From Spartobacteria bacterium (lineage in GTDB: Bacteria; Verrucomicrobiota; Verrucomicrobiia; Chthoniobacterales; UBA10450): DNA of 64,000 bases. A model generated the notes under the pieces. It saw only the letters and a list, made by a program, of their open reading frames with translations. It did not search any database and was not told the origin of the DNA. This document shows positions 44,364 to 59,761 of the stretch, in pieces. A program made the position numbers and the translations under genes. Position 1 is the first letter of the stretch; each line of letters begins with the position of its first letter. The stretch covers positions 1 through 64,000 of the forward strand of contig PNAA01000009.1 of assembly GCA_003169975.1 (NCBI GenBank), read 5' to 3'.

Positions 44364-45332
44364 TCACGCCGCGCCCAGGCTGGCGCAATAGGTGTCATAC
44401 ATCGCCTCGCTCACTTCCACGAGCCGCTTCTGGATCGCTTCCAGATATTGGTGCAAACCGAACTCGAAGATCTCACTGATCGTGACGTAATCGACATCGG
44501 AGCGCAGCCGGCCCGATAACCGTTCGACTTCGTTCGCAAAGCGCGTCTCCGGCGCACCGGAAATCCGGTGCAGCGCGTTGTCGAGCGAGTCGATGCAAAA
44601 CCGGATCGAGCGCGGAAATTCCCGATCGGTGATGAGAAATTGCGCGACCTTCCAAGGCGCGACCTGGCTGACGTAAAGTTTGCAGTAAGCCTCCAGCGCG
44701 CTGCACGATTTCAGCACCGCCATCCACTCGATCGTGTCGACATTGCCGCCGACGTCTTCGCCCGAGGGCAACAAAATGTGGTACTTCACGTCGAGGATGC
44801 GCGAGGTGCAATCGGCCCGTTCGAGGAGCGCCCCGATGCGGATGAAATCCCAGCCCTCGCCATGCGACATGGTCGCGTCGGTCATGCCCTGGAAAAGATG
44901 CGAGCCCGAGGTGATGCGCTTAAGAAACTCGTGCGGGCTGGTGCGCAGGAGCTTTTTCGCCGCGTCGCTTTTCACAAAAAGATAGAGCCGGTTGATTTGC
45001 TCCCACATCTCGCTCGAGATCTGTTCGCGGGTAGTGCGCGCATTTTCGCGGGCGTGCGAGAGACAGGAAAAAATCGAGTTCGGATTTTTCTTCTGCATGG
45101 TGACGAACTCGGTGACCGAATTGCCGTCCGCTTTTTCGTAGAGCGAACCGAAAAGCTCGGTCTCCTCGAGCGAGGCGATGACCGGCGCCCAATGGTCCAT
45201 GATTTCGGCTTCCGATTGATTCCCAAGGTCGAGCAGGAGTTGGAGATTGACATCGAGAATGCGGGCGTTGTTTTCCGCCCGCTCGATGTAGCGGCTCATC
45301 CAGTAAAGGGAATCAGCGACCCGGCTTAGCAT
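44364..45332 (-). CDS. Alpha-E domain protein (DUF403)
   Basis: 322-residue all-helical protein. MLSRVADSLYWMSRYIERAE NNARILDVNLQLLL is the characteristic alpha-E N-terminus; RENARTTREQISSEMWEQIN and SHGEGWDFIRIGALLERADC TSRILD are further blocks. Alpha-E proteins form conserved loci with circularly permuted ATP-grasp and transglutaminase proteins, proposed to make or modify a peptide. It follows the ATP-grasp gene on the same strand. ATG at 45332 is used; upstream is a repeat, not coding. Confidence 0.93.
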   Translation of the reverse strand: MLSRVADSLYWMSRYIERAENNARILDVNLQLLLDLGNQSEAEIMDHWAPVIASLEETELFGSLYEKADGNSVTEFVTMQKKNPNSIFSCLSHARENARTTREQISSEMWEQINRLYLFVKSDAAKKLLRTSPHEFLKRITSGSHLFQGMTDATMSHGEGWDFIRIGALLERADCTSRILDVKYHILLPSGEDVGGNVDTIEWMAVLKSCSALEAYCKLYVSQVAPWKVAQFLITDREFPRSIRFCIDSLDNALHRISGAPETRFANEVERLSGRLRSDVDYVTISEIFEFGLHQYLEAIQKRLVEVSEAMYDTYCASLGAA

Positions 45333-45339
45333 AAAAAAT

Positions 45340-45440
45340 AGTGACGAGTGATAGGTGACGAGTGACGAGCGCATGTTCGTCGTCTGTTTAGTTTTGCACC
45401 TTGTCGTCTCATCACTCGTCACTCGTCACTTGTCACTCTT
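45340..45440. repeat. GTGACGAGTGA inverted repeat between the alpha-E and ATP-grasp genes
   Basis: GTGACGAGTGATAGGTGACG AGTGACGAG faces CATCACTCGTCACTCGTCACTTGTCACT about 35 bases later. A large hairpin would form between the two genes and overlaps the 3' end of the ATP-grasp gene by a few bases. Confidence 0.75.
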
Positions 45441-46878
45441 CTTCCTCCACCACCCAGGTATCCTTACTCCCGCCCCCCTGCGAGGAATTGACGACGAGCG
45501 AACCGGCCCGCAGAGCTACTCTCGTTAGGCCGCCGGGGATGATCGTGACTTTCTCGCCGGACAAAATATAGGGCCGCAAATCGACGTGCCGGCCCTGGAT
45601 CGAATCGTCGCAAAACGACGGCGAACGGGAGAGGGCGACGATCGGCTGCGCGATGTAGTTGCGTGGGTCTTTCCTGATCTGGGCCGCGAACTCTTCCCGC
45701 TCCGCCGCGGTCGCCTGCGAGCCGATCAACATGCCGTAGCCGCCGCTTTCGTTCGCCGCTTTCACGACCAGCTCGGGCAGATGATCGAGGATGTAGGCGC
45801 GGTCCGATTTATCGGCGGCGAGGTAAGTCGGAACGTTGCCCAGGATCGGATCCTCGCCCAGGTAATAGCGGATCATCTTCGGCACGAAATGGTAGATCAC
45901 CTTGTCGTCGGCCACGCCGGTGCCGATGGAATTGGCCAGGCTCACATTCCCGCGCCGGACTGCATCGACCAGCCCCGGAACGCCCAGCCCGGAGTCCTTC
46001 CGGAAGACGCGCGGGTCGAGAAAATCGTCATTGATCCGCCGGTAAATCACATCGACCGGCTTGCGGCCTTTGGTCGTGCGCATGAAAACACAACCATCCT
46101 GCGCGAGGAGGTCGCGGCCTTCCACGATCTCGATGCCCATCGAGCGGGCGAGGAATGAATGTTCGTAATAGGCCGAGTTGTAAACCCCGGGCGTGAGGAG
46201 CACGACGTTCGGCTCGCGCGCTTCCGGCGGCGCGATGTAGCGCAGGACGTTAAGCAACTCCTGCGCGTAATCCTCCACCGGCCGCACCCGGTATTCCGCA
46301 AAGAGATAGGGAAAGATCCGCTTCATCGCCTGCCGATTTTCGAGCACGTAGGAAACACCGGAGGGGCAACGCGCGTTGTCTTCGAGCACGAGATAATTTC
46401 CCTCGCGATCGCGAATCAGATCGGTCCCGCAGATGTGGATATAGATACTGCGCGGCACATCGAAGTTCATGAACTCCGGCCGGAAAGAAGTGGCTTCCCA
46501 GACGATCTGCTTCGGGATCACGCCATCGCGCAGGATGTTTTGCCCGTGATAAATGTCGTGCAGGTAAAGATTGAGCGCGGTGATCCGTTGCACCAGACCG
46601 CGCTCGACCAGGTCCCACTCGCGCGCCGGGATGATGCGCGGGATCAGGTCGAACGGGAAAATCCGTTCCGTTCCCTGGTCGTCGTTGTAAACCGTGAAAG
46701 TGACCCCCTGCCGGAGAAAACTGGCCGCCGCCAGCGCACGTTTGCGCTCGAAATCCGCCGCCCCCATTTCCTTGAAGCTCGCGAGGATTCTGCTGTAATG
46801 GGGACGCGCCACACCGGGCGCGGAAAACATCTCATCGAAAAAATCGTCGACCTTGTATTGGGAGAAAAGGTCGGACAT
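45433..46878 (-). CDS. Circularly permuted ATP-grasp type 2 protein
   Basis: 481 residues, the DUF404/DUF407 (CP_ATPgrasp_1/2) family. Key blocks: [108 protein letters not shown] and [23 protein letters not shown]. These proteins probably ligate a carboxylate to an amine and are linked to alpha-E proteins, as here. No transglutaminase gene is visible within 3 kb. ATG at 46878 ([17 protein letters not shown]) fixes the start; it diverges from the methyltransferase gene. Confidence 0.93.
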
Positions 46879-46939
46879 GGGAACCGTCAATTTGTCAGCG
46901 CCACAGAGCCACGCAATGAAAAACGGGACGACTGAACGA

Positions 46940-47656
46940 ATGGAACATGAGCACGCCTGCACGCGCGTCGCGGCGCGCTTCTCCGAACGCTGGCTGCGCC
47001 TCTATGCGGGGCGGAAACTGCGCAACGATCCCGTGTTCCTCACCGCCTTCGAGCTGCTCCGCGCATCGCCATCGCCGCTCGTCGATATCGGCTGCGGCGT
47101 CGGCCTCCTCGCCTTTTACCTGCGCGAGCGCAATTTCCGGCCGCCGATCAGCGGCCTGGACCGCGACGGACGGAAGATCGCGCGCGCCCATGCGGTCGCA
47201 CACGGCGTTTATGGCGACCTCGAATTCATCGAACAGGATGTCTGCGCACCGATCACGCCAACCGGCAACGTGGTGCTCTTCGACGTCCTGCATTATCTTT
47301 CGCCTAGCGAACAAGCGCGCCTTCTCGACCGGCTCGCGCCGCGCGTCGCGCCCGGCGGCCTGCTCGTCATCCGCGATTGTCCGCGCGACCGCAACGCGCG
47401 TTACTGGCTCACCCATCTGGCGGAACGTTTCGCCCAGATGACGACCTGGAACATCCAGGTGCCGCTCCATTTTCCAACGCGCGAGAAAATCCGGGCCGCG
47501 TTCGGCGACAATCAGTTCACCCAGACCGTGCAGCCGCTCTGGGGGCGCACGCCCTTCAACAATCACCTCTTCATTTTTCGCCGGCGCGACACCGCAACTG
47601 TTCCGGGCTGGGCAGAACGCAGCGATAATTCGCTTTCGTTAGGGCGAGCAGGATGA
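46940..47656 (+). CDS. Class I SAM-dependent methyltransferase
   Basis: 238 residues. SAM-binding motif I is [17 protein letters not shown] (about 45), with an acidic residue at the end of strand 2 ([12 protein letters not shown]), motif [16 protein letters not shown] and [10 protein letters not shown]. The substrate is unknown; similar proteins act in polyketide, lipid or pigment loci. ATG at 46940 is preferred over 46916. The final 28 codons overlap the end of the convergent deacetylase gene by 86 bp. Confidence 0.82.
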
Positions 47657-48389
47657 GCTCGAGACAGCGCGGATGAAAATCTGGGTCGGTGGCCGTGCGG
47701 TGTCCTTCGTGGAGGAGGAGAATCGCGCCCGGCTTCACCTCGCGCATAATGCGGGCCGCGACCGCCGCAGGATCCCTGCTTACGGTATCCAGTCCGCGCA
47801 CGCTCCAGCCGATCAGCCGCAGGTTACGCCGTACCAGCAAGGGATGAACGAAGAAGTTTTTCATCCCGGCGGGGGCGCGAAAATAACGAGATGAGACAGC
47901 GCCTTGATCGATCTCCGCGGCGATGCGCGCCGGCGGCAAGCACCAAAATGTTCCGCTCGGATGCGTGCAGGTGTGGTTCGCGATTTCATGTCCGGCGGCC
48001 CGAATCGACTCCAGTTCCGCAGGGAACTTTGTTGCCCGTTGCCCAATGACAAAGAAGGTCGCTCGCGCTTCGAAGCGCTGCAGAATTTCGAGCATCCGCG
48101 GGGTGTGAATCGGGTCCGGCCCGTCGTCGATCGTGAGCCAGACTTCGCGCCGTGATGTTTCGAAATGCGTGACGACAGGTCCCCACCACTGGCAGTTGGC
48201 GACCAGCGTCGGGAACAAAATCAGCATGTGCGAAAAGAAGAGAACGCCGAGCGCGAGCAACGGATGGAAGGAGACGACGACCAGAAAGAAGAGCGCGGCG
48301 ACCAGCGCGCAGCCGAGAATCGCTCTTCGGACGAACCCATTTCGGGATCGCTCCCCTCCCCTTCTGTCATGTCGAGCGCAGCGAAACAT
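47571..48389 (-). CDS. Polysaccharide deacetylase (NodB domain), membrane-anchored
   Basis: 272 residues. One N-terminal transmembrane stretch (about 22-60: ALVAALFFLVVVSFHPLLAL GVLFFSHMLI) is followed by a NodB domain with VWLTIDDGPD (catalytic Asp and metal Asp), the metal-binding HTCTHPSGTF (HxxxH), FRAPAGMKN and ILLLHEGH. It probably removes acetyl groups from a cell-surface glycan. The ATG at 48387-48389 lies in an inverted repeat (48365-48464), so that repeat provides the first codons; no other in-frame start is suitable. Confidence 0.85.
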   Translation of the reverse strand: MFRCARHDRRGGERSRNGFVRRAILGCALVAALFFLVVVSFHPLLALGVLFFSHMLILFPTLVANCQWWGPVVTHFETSRREVWLTIDDGPDPIHTPRMLEILQRFEARATFFVIGQRATKFPAELESIRAAGHEIANHTCTHPSGTFWCLPPARIAAEIDQGAVSSRYFRAPAGMKNFFVHPLLVRRNLRLIGWSVRGLDTVSRDPAAVAARIMREVKPGAILLLHEGHRTATDPDFHPRCLELILLALTKANYRCVLPSPEQLRCRAGEK

Positions 48390-48464
48390 CTCTGACTATT
48401 TCCGCACGGAGACTGGGAAGAACAATCAGAGATTCTTCCTCCGCTGCGCTCCGTCAGAATGACA
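48365..48464. repeat. TGTCATGTCGAGCG inverted repeat element
   Basis: Second copy of the element at 8991-9093: TGTCATGTCGAGCGCAGCGA with AAACATCTCTGA, and the complementary CAGAGATTCTTCC and CCGTCAGAATGACA. It carries the start codon of the deacetylase gene. Confidence 0.78.
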
Positions 48465-48498
48465 ACTAGGGCGAGGCGGCGCGAAGCGCGGCGTTTCC

Positions 48499-48996
48499 TC
48501 ACGCGCCGACGCCATCTTCTTCCCGAAGAATCCTCAGGATGACGATCGAAAACAAATTCGCGCCCACCAGACCGAGCCAGAAGATGCCTAACGATTTCAG
48601 CCAGCCGCTTTCGTCCTGCGCGAGCCGGAACGCGAGAAACGTAATCAGTGAGATGATGACGAAATGCTGGAACGAATTGTTCGTCCGCCCGGAGTAGAGG
48701 TCGAGTCGACGCAGGAACGCGACGATCAGCCAGTTGACGAAGTAAAGGAGGAGAAACGCGATCCAGATCGCGAACGGCATGAACAGGGCGATCACCAGTT
48801 GCCAGGGAAGTGGCCTAACGACGGGAAGAATGGCCCGCGCGGCGAAGACGCAGCCGATCCCGAAGACGAGCAGACCCACTCCGTAGGCTTCCCCGCGGCT
48901 GAGTTCGGCCCGGCGCACTTTGCGTCCCCCGAGACGCGCGACCAGCCGCGGCAGGGCAAAGGCGTAACCGATCTCGCGCGCGGTTGAGTGACTCAT
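48499..48996 (-). CDS. Membrane protein of unknown function
   Basis: 165 residues with four hydrophobic helices (VGLLVFGIGCVFAARAILPV, VIALFMPFAIWIAFLLLYFV, FVIISLITFLAFRL, LGIFWLGLVGANLFSIVIL). No family recognised. ATG 48996 overlaps the stop of the acyltransferase gene as ATGA, making it the third gene of a flavoprotein-acyltransferase-membrane unit, so a role in moving or anchoring their product is possible. Confidence 0.72.
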   Translation of the reverse strand: MSHSTAREIGYAFALPRLVARLGGRKVRRAELSRGEAYGVGLLVFGIGCVFAARAILPVVRPLPWQLVIALFMPFAIWIAFLLLYFVNWLIVAFLRRLDLYSGRTNNSFQHFVIISLITFLAFRLAQDESGWLKSLGIFWLGLVGANLFSIVILRILREEDGVGA

Positions 48997-49898
48997 CGCG
49001 CGGGAAAGATCGGAACGAGCGAAAACCATTGCGACCAGTGCGCGGCGATCACGCTCTCAAGCGTGCGACACCAGGCCCGCATCGCCTCCTCGATCGCGGG
49101 CTCGCGCCCACGCTCGGTGCGGAGGCCATGGATCGGCGCGCGGGCGATGATCTTGTAACGGTGATACGACGTCCGCACGATGAAGAGCGGAAAAATCGGC
49201 GCCTGCGTGACGAAGGCGAGCATGAAAGGCCCGTCCGGCAGCCTAACGACCTGACCAAAGAGCTGCGCCGCGCGCTGCGACCCATGCTCGACCGCGCGAT
49301 CGCCCTGGATGGAAACGATTTCCCCCTGCCGGATGGCGTTCAGGAGCTCGAAGGGCAGCGCCATACTCGAGGTGTTGTAAGCCACCTTGACCGCGCCCGC
49401 CCCCGCGCGTTCGAGCGAGGCGTCGAGATGTTGCGCGGTTTGTTCGTCGGATTCCGGCGCGCGGACCATCCGGATCTCGCGCTGGAAACGCCGCGCGAAA
49501 ATGGCGGCCCCCAGATCGTAGTTTCCCATGTGAGCGGTGAGCAAGACCGCGCCGTGCGCCGCCGCGAGCTGGTCGAGAAACTCCGCTCCTTCCACTTCGT
49601 AGGCGAACTCGGTTTGCGCCAGCCGGTCATTGGCCGCATCGGAAATCGCCCAGGCAAAATTGTAAAGTGTCAGCCAGGCGCGCCCGAGATTGAGAAGCGG
49701 GCTGGAGCCGGGAAGGACGACCCGCAGGTTGCTCAGGATGGCGCGCCGGGCCGGCGCGGCGAGGAAGAAAAAGAAGATCGTCCAGAAGAAGATCATCACC
49801 GGCTGGAGGTAGAACGGTACGTTCGTTAGGCCAAAATCGAGATAGTGCCGCCAGAGAACACCGCGCACCGCGAAACGGCGCCGCCAGAGATCGAACAT
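48993..49898 (-). CDS. LpxL/HtrB-like acyltransferase
   Basis: 301-residue membrane-bound acyltransferase. An N-terminal anchor (LQPVMIFFWTIFFFFLAAP) precedes RRAILSNLRVVLPGSSPLLN, then the HX4D/E-type active-site block VLLTAHMGNYDLGAAIFARR, and VSIQGDRAVEHGSQ, the typical LpxL/M-family layout. The acceptor could be lipid A or, in pigment loci, a polyene or resorcinol product. Its ATG shares one base with the TGA of the flavoprotein gene (TGATG), so tight co-translation is expected. Confidence 0.87.
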   Translation of the reverse strand: MFDLWRRRFAVRGVLWRHYLDFGLTNVPFYLQPVMIFFWTIFFFFLAAPARRAILSNLRVVLPGSSPLLNLGRAWLTLYNFAWAISDAANDRLAQTEFAYEVEGAEFLDQLAAAHGAVLLTAHMGNYDLGAAIFARRFQREIRMVRAPESDEQTAQHLDASLERAGAGAVKVAYNTSSMALPFELLNAIRQGEIVSIQGDRAVEHGSQRAAQLFGQVVRLPDGPFMLAFVTQAPIFPLFIVRTSYHRYKIIARAPIHGLRTERGREPAIEEAMRAWCRTLESVIAAHWSQWFSLVPIFPAR

Positions 49899-51442
49899 CA
49901 GGCTTCGACGGTCGCCGCCGCCGGAGCCGTCGCGCCCGGAGTTGGTTTCGGGCTGGCGAAGAGAAAACGCAGATTGCGCAGCTCTGCATTCCACCAGCGA
50001 AAGAGGCCTTTGCGAATCAATTTATGGAGCCTAAAATCGGGCACGAATCCGTCGTAGAGCTCGCGCCAGCCAGCATTGCTCGCCCCGCAGACGCCATACG
50101 CGATCCGGTTTTTCGCGAGCGCGCTCAGCCGTCGATTGTAGAACTTCATCATCCCGGCGAAGAGGCGGCCGGTCCTGCCGGTGAACGGCAGCTCGAGAAA
50201 GGCGCGCTCGGGATTCGCGTAAATCGGCCTAACGAGCCCCACGAAATAAAGGCCCACGTCGAGGAGCAACGCGGCCGACATCAGGTCCGCCTCGCCCATG
50301 TAAAAGTATTTGTCCAGATAGAGCGTCTCGAACCAGAAGCGGTAAGTCGTCGGGAATTGCTCGTTGTAATACTTCAGCCGCTCCGCCACGTCTTCGCCGC
50401 CGAGCGCGCGCACCAACAGGTCGCTCACCAAGGAGGTGGTGTAGGCGCAAAGATCGAGCCCGGGACTGTAAAGCGGATCGAGGAATCCGGCCGCGTCGCC
50501 GACCAGCGCCCAGCCATCGCCGCAAACATTCGTGCTGTGATACGGCAATGCGGAGTAAGCCCGGACATCGCCGGGAATGATCTTCGCGCCCGCGAAAATC
50601 TCGTGGCCGACCGGATGCTGAAGGATGTGTTGCAGCAGCCGTTCGCCGAGATTCGCGCCTTCGGGCAAAGTGAACAGCCGGCTGTCGTAAACGATCCCCG
50701 CGCTGAAATCGCCGCCTCTGAGCGGGATGATCCAGCACCACCAACCCAGGCCCATGAGATGGTTCGTCGCCCAGCCGCGGCCGGTGCGCGCGGCACCGGC
50801 GTAATCCGGAAACCTTTGCCGCCACTCATAGCTGTCCCAATCTTTCACCCCGGTAAAACGGGCCCAAGCAGCGTTGATCGGATGCTCGGAATTCGGGCAA
50901 AAATAGCCGAGTTTGCGCGCGAGAAAGGCGGCCCGGCCGCTGGCGTCCACCACCCAGCGACAGCGGGCCTCGCGCTCTGCACCGTCCGCCAGTTTCACGC
51001 CTAACGACTGTCCGTTCGCGCCGTCAAATTCAGAGCGCGTGACTTTGGCCGGCTGCCACACTTCACAGCCGGATTCCGCCGCGATCTCGAGCAGATGGGT
51101 GTCGAGCTTGGCCCGATCCAGTTGGAAACTCGGGATGCGCGCCTGATAGCGCGCCCCGATCTCCACACAGTCGTCGAACGCCTGGTCCGGGCGATTGGCG
51201 AACCAAAGCCGCAGCCCCTGTTTCGAGAGTTGCTCGTGCCCGAGGTATCTCGTTAGGCCGAGAATTTTCGTGAGAAAGCAACTGCTCACCTCGGTCGTCG
51301 ATTCCCCCACCTTGCGATCGAACTCGGTCGCTTTCTCGATGATCAGGATGCGCGTCTCGGGCCGCCGGCGCTTGATCAGGAGGGCCGTGGCCGCGCCGGA
51401 AAACGCGCCGCCGACAATCGCGACGTCGAACTCAGGAATCAT
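49898..51442 (-). CDS. Tryptophan-halogenase-like FAD-dependent oxidoreductase
   Basis: 514 residues of the flavin-dependent halogenase/geranylgeranyl-reductase-like superfamily. The FAD-binding motif is VAIVGGAFSGAATALLIKRR, and WALVGDAAGFLDPLYSPGLD LC is the conserved GDAAxxxDPxxxxG block. I do not see the WxWxIP motif as such, but GLGWWCWIIPLRGG is close (WWCWIIP), and KVGESTTEVSS resembles the GESxxP region. Substrate unknown. First gene of a three-gene overlapping unit with an acyltransferase and a membrane protein, an arrangement reminiscent of aryl-polyene or flexirubin pigment loci. Confidence 0.82.
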   Translation of the reverse strand: MIPEFDVAIVGGAFSGAATALLIKRRRPETRILIIEKATEFDRKVGESTTEVSSCFLTKILGLTRYLGHEQLSKQGLRLWFANRPDQAFDDCVEIGARYQARIPSFQLDRAKLDTHLLEIAAESGCEVWQPAKVTRSEFDGANGQSLGVKLADGAEREARCRWVVDASGRAAFLARKLGYFCPNSEHPINAAWARFTGVKDWDSYEWRQRFPDYAGAARTGRGWATNHLMGLGWWCWIIPLRGGDFSAGIVYDSRLFTLPEGANLGERLLQHILQHPVGHEIFAGAKIIPGDVRAYSALPYHSTNVCGDGWALVGDAAGFLDPLYSPGLDLCAYTTSLVSDLLVRALGGEDVAERLKYYNEQFPTTYRFWFETLYLDKYFYMGEADLMSAALLLDVGLYFVGLVRPIYANPERAFLELPFTGRTGRLFAGMMKFYNRRLSALAKNRIAYGVCGASNAGWRELYDGFVPDFRLHKLIRKGLFRWWNAELRNLRFLFASPKPTPGATAPAAATVEA

Positions 51443-51480: not shown

Positions 51481-52635
51481 ATGATGTCGCCGCCGATGAT
51501 CTTCACCCATGGCCGGCTGATTTTTCCCGATCGGATCGCAGACGGACTCACGCTCCAAGTCGAGGGCGGGAAGATCGTCGATCTGCGCCCCACGATCCCG
51601 CCCGACGGCGAGGAGGTGATCGACCTCGCGGGGAATTTCCTCGCGCCCGGCTTCATCGATCTGCACGTGCACGGCGCGGCGGGCCGCGACACGATGGAGG
51701 GGACCGCGGAAGCGTTTCGCGCGATTTGCGATTACCACGCTGGCGGCGGCACGACCTCGCTCCTCCTCACCACCGTGACTGCGCCGATCGCCGAGATCGT
51801 GCGGGTGGTGGCAGCGATCGAAGGCGAGGTGGGACGGATCCCACAACTCCGGGGCGCGCACGTGGAAGGGCCGTTTATCTCGCGCGCGAAAAACGGGGCG
51901 CAGCGCGCCGAATTCATCGTCGAGCCGCGCGCGGAATCGGTGGTGCAATTAATGGAAGCCGCCGGGGCCATCAAACGGGTCACGCTGGCGCCCGAGCTGC
52001 CGGGCGCGCCCGAGCTGATCGCGCACCTCACGACCCGCGGAATCGCCAGCAGTGGCGGGCACAGCGATGCCTGGGAGGAGGAGGCGCGCGCGGGTTTCAC
52101 GCAGGGAATGCGCCAGGTGACGCACACTTTTAACTGCATGTCGTCGATGCGCCGCCGCGGCCGCGAACGCGTCGCCGGCCTGCTCGAGTTTGCGCTCAGC
52201 GAGCCGGAGATTTTTTGTGAGCTGATCGCCGACGGCTGTCATGTTTCCAAGACGTTGATGCGGATGCTTTACCAGGCCAAGGGGGCCGACGGAATTTGTC
52301 TGGTGACGGATGCGATCGCGGGCGCCGGGTTGCCTAACGGGGCTCGGTTTTCGCTTTTCGGGAACGACTGCCTGGTGACCGACGGGGCCTGCTGGCTGGC
52401 GGACGGTTCCGCGCTCGCCGGCAGCTCGTCGCGCATGATCGATCTCGTTAGGCGGATGGTGGCGGTGGTCGGCGTTCCCTTGCCCGAAGCGGTCCGCATG
52501 GCCACGAAAACGCCCGCCTGGGCGATGGATTGGAAGCGGAAGGGCGCACTGGTCGAAGGGATGGATGCTGATTTGGTCGTCCTGTCGCCGGAGCTGAAAG
52601 TGGTCCGGACCTTTTGCGGCGGCGCGGCGCTCTAA
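51481..52635 (+). CDS. nagA: N-acetylglucosamine-6-phosphate deacetylase
   Basis: Amidohydrolase that removes acetate from GlcNAc-6-phosphate for recycling or catabolism. Motifs: APGFIDLHVHGAAGRDTMEG (metal HxH), GAHVEGPFISRAKNGAQ with the metal Glu, GGHSDA, TFNCMSSM, VTDAIAGAG with the catalytic Asp, and a C-terminal PAWAMDWKRKGALVEGMDAD LVVL. 384 residues, normal length. It diverges from the flavoprotein gene with 38 bp between starts. No nagB or PTS gene is adjacent. Confidence 0.94.
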   Translation: MMSPPMIFTHGRLIFPDRIADGLTLQVEGGKIVDLRPTIPPDGEEVIDLAGNFLAPGFIDLHVHGAAGRDTMEGTAEAFRAICDYHAGGGTTSLLLTTVTAPIAEIVRVVAAIEGEVGRIPQLRGAHVEGPFISRAKNGAQRAEFIVEPRAESVVQLMEAAGAIKRVTLAPELPGAPELIAHLTTRGIASSGGHSDAWEEEARAGFTQGMRQVTHTFNCMSSMRRRGRERVAGLLEFALSEPEIFCELIADGCHVSKTLMRMLYQAKGADGICLVTDAIAGAGLPNGARFSLFGNDCLVTDGACWLADGSALAGSSSRMIDLVRRMVAVVGVPLPEAVRMATKTPAWAMDWKRKGALVEGMDADLVVLSPELKVVRTFCGGAAL

Positions 52636-59432: not shown

Positions 59433-59496
59433 GAAACGGCTGATTTAGCCGCATTGATGCGGCGCCGGCGTGGCTTGTTTCGCCGGGTTTATTGTG

Positions 59497-59539
59497 GAGC
59501 ATCGGTGGCTGTTCGAATCAGCCACCGATGCTTTTTTTT
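59497..59539 (+). terminator. Rho-independent terminator
   Basis: A perfect 14-bp stem AGCATCGGTGGCTG / CAGCCACCGATGCT with the 7-base loop TTCGAAT is followed by eight more T residues. It ends the PEP-CTERM transcript and is the clearest intrinsic terminator in the window. Confidence 0.93.
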
Positions 59540-59624
59540 TGGGCGAGGAGACCGGGCCGTCCTCTGCTTGCGCGAGCGCGGGGGGAGAAACCTGCCCTAA
59601 CGAAGAGTCCATCCTGGCGGCCGC

Positions 59625-59707
59625 GTCATCCCGAGCGCAGTCGAGGGATCCCGTGGTGAAACCTTCCAGCCAGCGCACCGGGATCCCTCGACTGCGCTCG
59701 GGATGAC
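59625..59707. repeat. Complete GTCATCCCGAGCGCAG inverted repeat
   Basis: GTCATCCCGAGCGCAGTCGA GGGATCCCG faces CGGGATCCCTCGACTGCGCT CGGGATGAC, nearly perfect arms of about 30 bases around a 25-base centre. It is the intergenic reference copy of the family found in frame in uvrA at 23197-23289. Confidence 0.88.
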
Positions 59708-59761
59708 TGGATTTTTTTAACTTTCCCATTGACCGCGCCTCTCGCCGCTAGCCTCGCCGCG

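Follow-up and report, generated by a model that had tools for sequence, protein, structure and literature searches.

Do the overlapping genes FAD1 (a flavoprotein), AT (an acyltransferase) and TM4 (a membrane protein), which lie beside a polysaccharide deacetylase gene (PDA) and a methyltransferase gene (MT) in a soil-dwelling Spartobacteria bacterium of the family UBA10450 (order Chthoniobacterales, phylum Verrucomicrobiota), form a unit of their own, or do they serve a pathway whose other parts are encoded elsewhere? The window, that is, the whole stretch of 64,000 nucleotides analysed here, belongs to contig C18 of genome G000 (4.47 Mb in 59 contigs, 97% complete). The initial annotation associated these kinds of genes with aryl-polyene pigment clusters, saw no ketosynthase and proposed a minimal lipid-tailoring unit. 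The association is borne out by homologues in such clusters of relatives, and no ketosynthase (KS) is present in the window; the proposed unit, however, was wrong or at least incomplete, because the homologues occur with ketosynthases in relatives, and other contigs of G000 carry a KS with a chain-length factor (CLF) and an export operon. We propose, with a probability of roughly 0.6, that the locus supplies the tailoring steps of a lipid pathway of the aryl-polyene (APE)/xanthomonadin type and is unlinked from the rest of it, the family keeping the pathway in at least three places. This reading is built on the kinds of genes, their family-wide conservation, their homology to clustered versions and a linked gene replacement, and both product and reactions are putative. 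The kinds of genes are ordinary; what is unusual is the dispersal of a pathway whose kind is known.

Clustered relatives of the locus

FAD1 homologues lie within aryl-polyene-type clusters at L089 and L091-L094. In genome G033, contig C15 (L089 and L207) carries over ~15 kb FAD1, LolA, MMPL, an AMP-ligase, an FAD oxidoreductase, an LPG-synthase-TM-like gene, MT, PDA, KS, CLF, an acyl carrier protein (ACP), a second flavoprotein (FAD2) and an acyltransferase (by homology). Pfam matches in G057 (L094) reveal PDA, ACP, FAD2, AT, LolA, MMPL, KS, CLF and FAD1, and the cluster of G035 (L092) has a similar content; a single frame of 1057 aa in the latter cluster (L092 2592-5765) fuses an MMPL exporter to an LpxL-type acyltransferase. 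On the betaproteobacterial metagenome-assembled contig L191, a CLF-KS pair adjoins FAD1. Chthoniobacter flavus Ellin428 (L192) carries, over ~21 kb, FAD1, LolA, MMPL, MT, a FAD2-like gene and a ligase, followed by PDA, FAD2, a LolB-like gene, MMPL, AT and LolA, and no KS was seen across the ~60 kb examined there. These clustered relatives agree with published gene lists (the arc genes of Azoarcus, the xanthomonadin-type KS/CLF with halogenase, and flexirubin flxP-U).

Individual window genes are tied to these clusters. FAD1 is 41-48% identical to the cluster FAD1s and belongs to one family with them. The C. flavus cluster methyltransferase finds a single strong match in G000, the window MT (49% identity, 1e-62; the next match is at 1e-3), which we regard as its orthologue on this sequence comparison. 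In the deacetylase tree, which has several long branches, a branch (83/95) separates the locus and cluster PDAs from the five other deacetylases of G000.

A ketosynthase pair and an export operon on other contigs

Six ketoacyl-synthase matches were found in G000, and contig C12 carries a pair in which the KS has the active-site motif NACAS and the CLF lacks it. The C12 KS shares 51% identity with the KS that stands beside FAD1 in L191 and 41-43% with those of L094 and L092, compared with 36% for the FabF of its own genome; for the CLF, identity is 31-34% with cluster CLFs, as against 23% with FabF. Judged by these identities, the C12 pair is of the aryl-polyene type and nearest to the cluster KS/CLF. 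The C51 KS (beside a polyketide-cyclase-fold gene), the C56 FabF and the KS at C53:125k were rejected as not of the cluster type. Contig C53 also carries a 2557-aa KS frame, and a large open reading frame (ORF) next to the C53 KS, suspected of being an exporter, turned out to encode a histidine kinase. Most of the genomes compared are drafts (53-100% complete), so that absences are soft; a KS orthologue, with an identity of 65% or more, was detected in 54 of 61 family genomes. An LptD-like gene is contiguous with KS and CLF in all six loci read (L010 9153-13857 on C12 of G000, and L199-L203); such a link of outer-membrane lipopolysaccharide assembly with a type II ketosynthase pair is unusual. 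Also on C12, an LpxL-type acyltransferase is fused to a heptosyltransferase-type GT9 domain (L012 3405-5384).

The putative export genes form an operon on contig C20 in the order FAD2, a 163-aa LolB-like gene, MMPL and LolA, which are 56, 45, 42 and 45% identical, respectively, to the C. flavus genes; the LolB-like label derives solely from homology to the C. flavus cluster, the gene having no Pfam match. MMPL (E<=1e-30) is found in 73 of 81 family genomes and in 29 of the 30 of good quality, and an LptF/G-like permease is near the C20-type export operon in many loci. A TENA/haem-oxygenase-like gene follows LolA on C20 (L196 13239-13910). TENA/haem-oxygenase-like proteins can make p-aminobenzoate in Chlamydia, and the C20 gene might supply an aromatic starter.

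The single cluster by which aryl-polyene pathways are recognized was thus not found: the window genes are on C18, KS:CLF on C12 and the exporter operon on C20. Because the chain-building and export genes lie elsewhere in the genome, tools that search for one cluster would miss such a pathway.

Conservation and gene neighbourhoods

At E<=1e-60, FAD1 relatives were detected in 82 of the 147 Chthoniobacterales genomes. Neighbourhoods were compared in a sample of 60 loci obtained with one query set and selected for carrying FAD1 or AT. FAD1-AT-TM4-PDA-MT is contiguous in 9/60 loci (L055-L059, L062, L100, L101 and L106), and AT-TM4-PDA-MT occurs without FAD1 in a further 6/60 (L096-L099, L102 and L104), a degree of contiguity by which the grouping exceeds chance. 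In other family loci, FAD1 adjoins nagA with AT alone, or is solitary (for example, L061, L063 and L065-L067); the gene set is therefore conserved without being a fixed unit. Elsewhere, FAD1 homologues adjoin FAD2 (L075, L076, L088 and L090).

These neighbourhoods bear on the suggestion that the locus is a self-sufficient lipid-tailoring unit independent of any ketosynthase pathway. Such a unit would fit the lack of a ketosynthase in view and the contiguity of the five genes in nine loci, but the genes do not move together as one, and matching pathway parts are present elsewhere in the genome. We reject the argument that a window lacking a ketosynthase must hold a separate unit, since C12 encodes an aryl-polyene-type KS:CLF whose KS is conserved in the family, and we consider self-sufficiency highly improbable. 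The initial annotation had named two arrangements as telling against its proposal, namely relatives that keep the genes in pigment clusters and genes that lie apart from each other. Relatives do keep genes of these kinds in such clusters, and FAD1 is separable from AT, so that the proposal is contradicted in part; within the family, on the other hand, KS is unlinked, so the locus does not lie in a standard cluster either.

Linked replacement of the two flavoproteins

Two types of FAD1 were distinguished, type A at the window locus and type B elsewhere in the genome, the latter being 43-49% identical to type A. Among 81 family genomes, 57 carry type A only, 12 type B only, one both and 11 neither (Fisher 2e-7, a value that ignores kinship). 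In the FAD1 tree, type B appears in three places, together with cluster-linked and FAD2-paired members, and type A stands with UbiD-linked and other members. The three positions of type B indicate that replacement probably occurred more than once.

FAD1B adjoins FAD2 or lies within ~2 kb of it in G099, G107, G156, G145, G187, G191, G198 and G076. Where the export operon of such a cassette carrier could be read past LolB, the operon FAD2 was missing in every case (5/5: G099, G107, G156, G145 and G191), compared with 1/16 among genomes other than cassette carriers (G131; p 3e-4, kinship ignored, with the result resting on two genera). G187 and G076 (contig ends) and G198 (operon not in the sample) were left out of this count. 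In the five informative genomes, therefore, the window-type FAD1 and the operon FAD2 are both gone. G008, G037 and G091 have FAD1B with no adjoining FAD2, and they retain the operon FAD2; in G169, FAD1B lies at a contig end. Because one cassette replaces two genes at unlinked loci, FAD1 and FAD2 are best explained as serving one pathway. Provided that the dispersed pathway is intact, this linked replacement offers a direct handle on the role of both flavoproteins in aryl-polyene pathways.

Fold and motifs of FAD1

The AlphaFold model of FAD1 (mean confidence score, pLDDT, 89.5) matches the flavin-dependent halogenases Bmp2, PltM, CtcP and PltA in the Protein Data Bank (PDB), as well as the Cytophaga flavoprotein 3NIX, with Z of about 30-32 (halogenases overall, about 29-32), at only 15-21% sequence identity to these four halogenases. 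Profile alignments pair K74 of FAD1 with a lysine, present in CmlS and PltA, that we take to be catalytic in halogenases. The initial annotation had suggested a search for this lysine and for WxWxIP; both are present, and K74, W235, W237, I239 and P240 are invariant in 40 aligned members of the FAD1 family. As FAD2 proteins hold the same features, however, these motifs mark the superfamily rather than a reaction, and we do not accept them as proof of halogenation. The model and the motifs together make halogenation by FAD1 possible.

An alternative that these data raise is that FAD1 oxygenates aromatic or quinone rings in general metabolism, in connection with UbiD-type decarboxylation, and that its adjacency to AT is incidental. 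Monooxygenase folds also match the model (p-hydroxybenzoate hydroxylase, Z about 25), though halogenases score higher (Z 29-32). A UbiD-type decarboxylase gene directly follows the FAD1 homologue in 6/60 loci, all from other families of Verrucomicrobiota (L080-L083, L085 and L087), and these homologues form a neighbouring clade in the tree; other FAD1 homologues, however, stand beside KS/CLF in L191, L092 and L094, and type A has been replaced by a type B of the cluster clade. On balance, we consider a role in general metabolism improbable. The same order of FAD1 and then UbiD was also observed in L177, L180, L181, L182 and L184 of other Verrucomicrobiota.

Weighing a dispersed pathway

Several observations weigh against a dispersed aryl-polyene pathway. 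AT is missing from 34 of 58 FAD1A genomes and FAD1A from 9 of 33 AT genomes, so that the two genes are separable. FAD1A groups with UbiD-linked rather than cluster-linked members (81/82), and AT, although separate in its tree from its own LpxL-type paralogues, sits on a very long branch, with at most a putative kinship to the cluster ATs. A TM4 profile run against the aryl-polyene loci and several G000 stretches returned nothing convincing. G131 has FAD1A yet lacks the operon FAD2. Four AT genomes of one genus (G082, G157, G161 and G167; 66-93% complete) have no KS orthologue, and matches in G000 to a starter-activating ligase are weak (at best 37% over part of the length and 26% over the full length), with no clear orthologue.

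The last two observations would also be expected if the ancestral pigment pathway had decayed or changed, and FAD1, AT, TM4, PDA and MT were now re-used to modify another, polyene-free envelope lipid, such as an N-acylated aminosugar lipid. Re-use would further fit the persistence of AT-TM4-PDA-MT in the 6/60 loci that FAD1 has left and the adjoining nagA-like gene. It would not account for the family-wide retention of KS:CLF, FAD2, LolB, MMPL and LolA, nor for the FAD1/FAD2 replacement, which ties the window to the export operon. We therefore regard re-use as unlikely, although it is the strongest competitor of the dispersed aryl-polyene pathway.

Proposed pathway and comparison with known systems

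In the dispersed pathway that we favour, the C12 KS:CLF, as its homology suggests, would assemble a carrier-protein-bound acyl chain of the aryl-polyene type. FAD1, partnered by the FAD2 that the export operon encodes, might, given their fold and motifs, oxidise or halogenate the aryl head or the chain, and MT, as the orthologue of a cluster methyltransferase, would methylate the product. PDA could then expose an amine on the hexosamine-type head of a lipid, which AT, aided by TM4, may acylate with either the polyene or a fatty acid. The C20 MMPL exporter, LolA and the LolB-like protein would finally move the pigment lipid to the outer membrane. More tentatively still, we suggest that this uncultured soil family of Verrucomicrobiota may make a possibly halogenated aryl-polyene outer-membrane lipid, that its modules sit in envelope-lipid loci (KS:CLF with lptD, the exporter with lptF/G-like and the tailoring genes with nagA), that TM4, with its four helices, is a new partner for an LpxL-type acyltransferase, and that a mobile cassette of two flavoproteins can take the place of genes from two modules together.

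The gene list of Azoarcus BH72 for the arcuflavin/xanthomonadin type includes the halogenase arcA, methyltransferase arcM, polysaccharide deacetylase arcN, exporter arcP, lolA arcQ, acyltransferase arcR, KS arcK and KS-like arcJ (PMC3949708), the same kinds of genes as in the proposed pathway, likened here by gene list and not by sequence. Azoarcus, according to that account, keeps them together with the core enzymes in two or three clusters, whereas here the tailoring genes, KS:CLF and the exporter occupy one contig each, and TM4 is additional. Xanthomonadin clusters of Lysobacter and Xanthomonas are described as having an unusual KS/CLF pair with a halogenase gene adjoining in many genomes (PMC3691225); this adjacency resembles that in L191 and L092/L094, but the window FAD1 is unlinked from its KS:CLF and its product is putative. 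The flexirubin genes flxP-flxU of Chitinophaga pinensis, as listed, bring together a polysaccharide deacetylase, an acyltransferase, LolA and an exporter (PMC3992019), as proposed here; that pathway, however, is clustered and includes a glycosyltransferase and an ammonia-lyase, neither of which was seen at the window. The E. coli APE cluster apeA-R shares an S-adenosylmethionine (SAM) methyltransferase, acyltransferases, an RND/MMPL exporter, LolA- and LolB-like proteins, KS and CLF, but it is a single cluster, and its gene table contains no flavoprotein or deacetylase (PMC8253772), both of which are present here.

Aryl-polyene clusters as such have been reported in Verrucomicrobiota (PMC9865893), and, in the account of a Ca. 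Udaeobacter genome study, few putative secondary-metabolite genes and only a weak arylpolyene cluster match (similarity 16% of genes) are given (PMC7343977). Our literature search, thin on subscription journals, found no report of a dispersed aryl-polyene pathway in Verrucomicrobiota. Should the pathway be intact but dispersed, cluster-based mining would undercount aryl-polyene pathways in a dominant soil group.

Layout of the window locus

The features of the locus are collected in Table 1. Direct reading confirmed the overlaps of 1 and 4 bases among FAD1, AT and TM4, with PDA and MT alongside, that the initial annotation had described: the FAD1 stop TGA lies within TGATG, so that AT begins on the final base of that stop, and AT ends in ATGA, giving its 4-base overlap with TM4.

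Table 1 Features of the locus and its neighbours in the window
Feature	Coordinates	Strand	Description
FAD1	49898..51442	-	514 aa, type A; flavin-dependent halogenase/monooxygenase superfamily; Pfam Trp_halogenase 58.5 bits (cut-off 21)
AT	48993..49898	-	301 aa, LpxL/HtrB-type acyltransferase; Pfam Lip_A_acyltrans 61 bits (cut-off 22.3)
TM4	48499..48996	-	165 aa, four-helix membrane protein; no Pfam family
PDA	47571..48389	-	272 aa; Pfam Polysacc_deac_1
MT	46853..47656	+	SAM methyltransferase; Pfam Methyltransf_23; convergent with PDA
nagA-like amidohydrolase	51481-52635		divergent from FAD1
ATP-grasp (circularly permuted)/Alpha-E pair	44364-46962		beyond MT; Pfam

FAD1 reached no NCBIfam equivalog cut-off. 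For AT, every NCBIfam lipid A acyltransferase model was far under its cut-off, and the threshold of the LpxL-proper equivalog was not reached; its sequence contains HMGNYD, which we take to be an HX4D-type motif. TM4 matches no NCBIfam family and no PDB fold at E<=0.001, and comparison with five relatives places it under purifying selection (non-synonymous divergence, dN, 0.27-0.52; synonymous divergence, dS, 0.98-1.34). It is a conserved family, and no relative was found outside the bacterial family in Pfam, NCBIfam, PDB fold and cluster-locus profile searches.

Direct reading also places a gap of ~110 bases, partly of repeat-like sequence, between TM4 and PDA. The repeat-like stretch (48389-48470) supplies the predicted PDA N terminus as well, and a similar 'HPERSRGI' reading occurs at 59445-59729; since the first codons of PDA fall in this stretch, its true start may be further in. 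The MT ORF opens at TTG, later ATGs are possible and homology starts near 46961; the tails of MT and PDA overlap by 86 bases. Among plasmid records, 76 of 72,556 matched query P0001, and the 25 matches listed had 25-31% identity, none of them close. The ATP-grasp and Alpha-E genes accompany the MT-PDA-TM4-AT block in several genera, yet they are a common pair in their own right.

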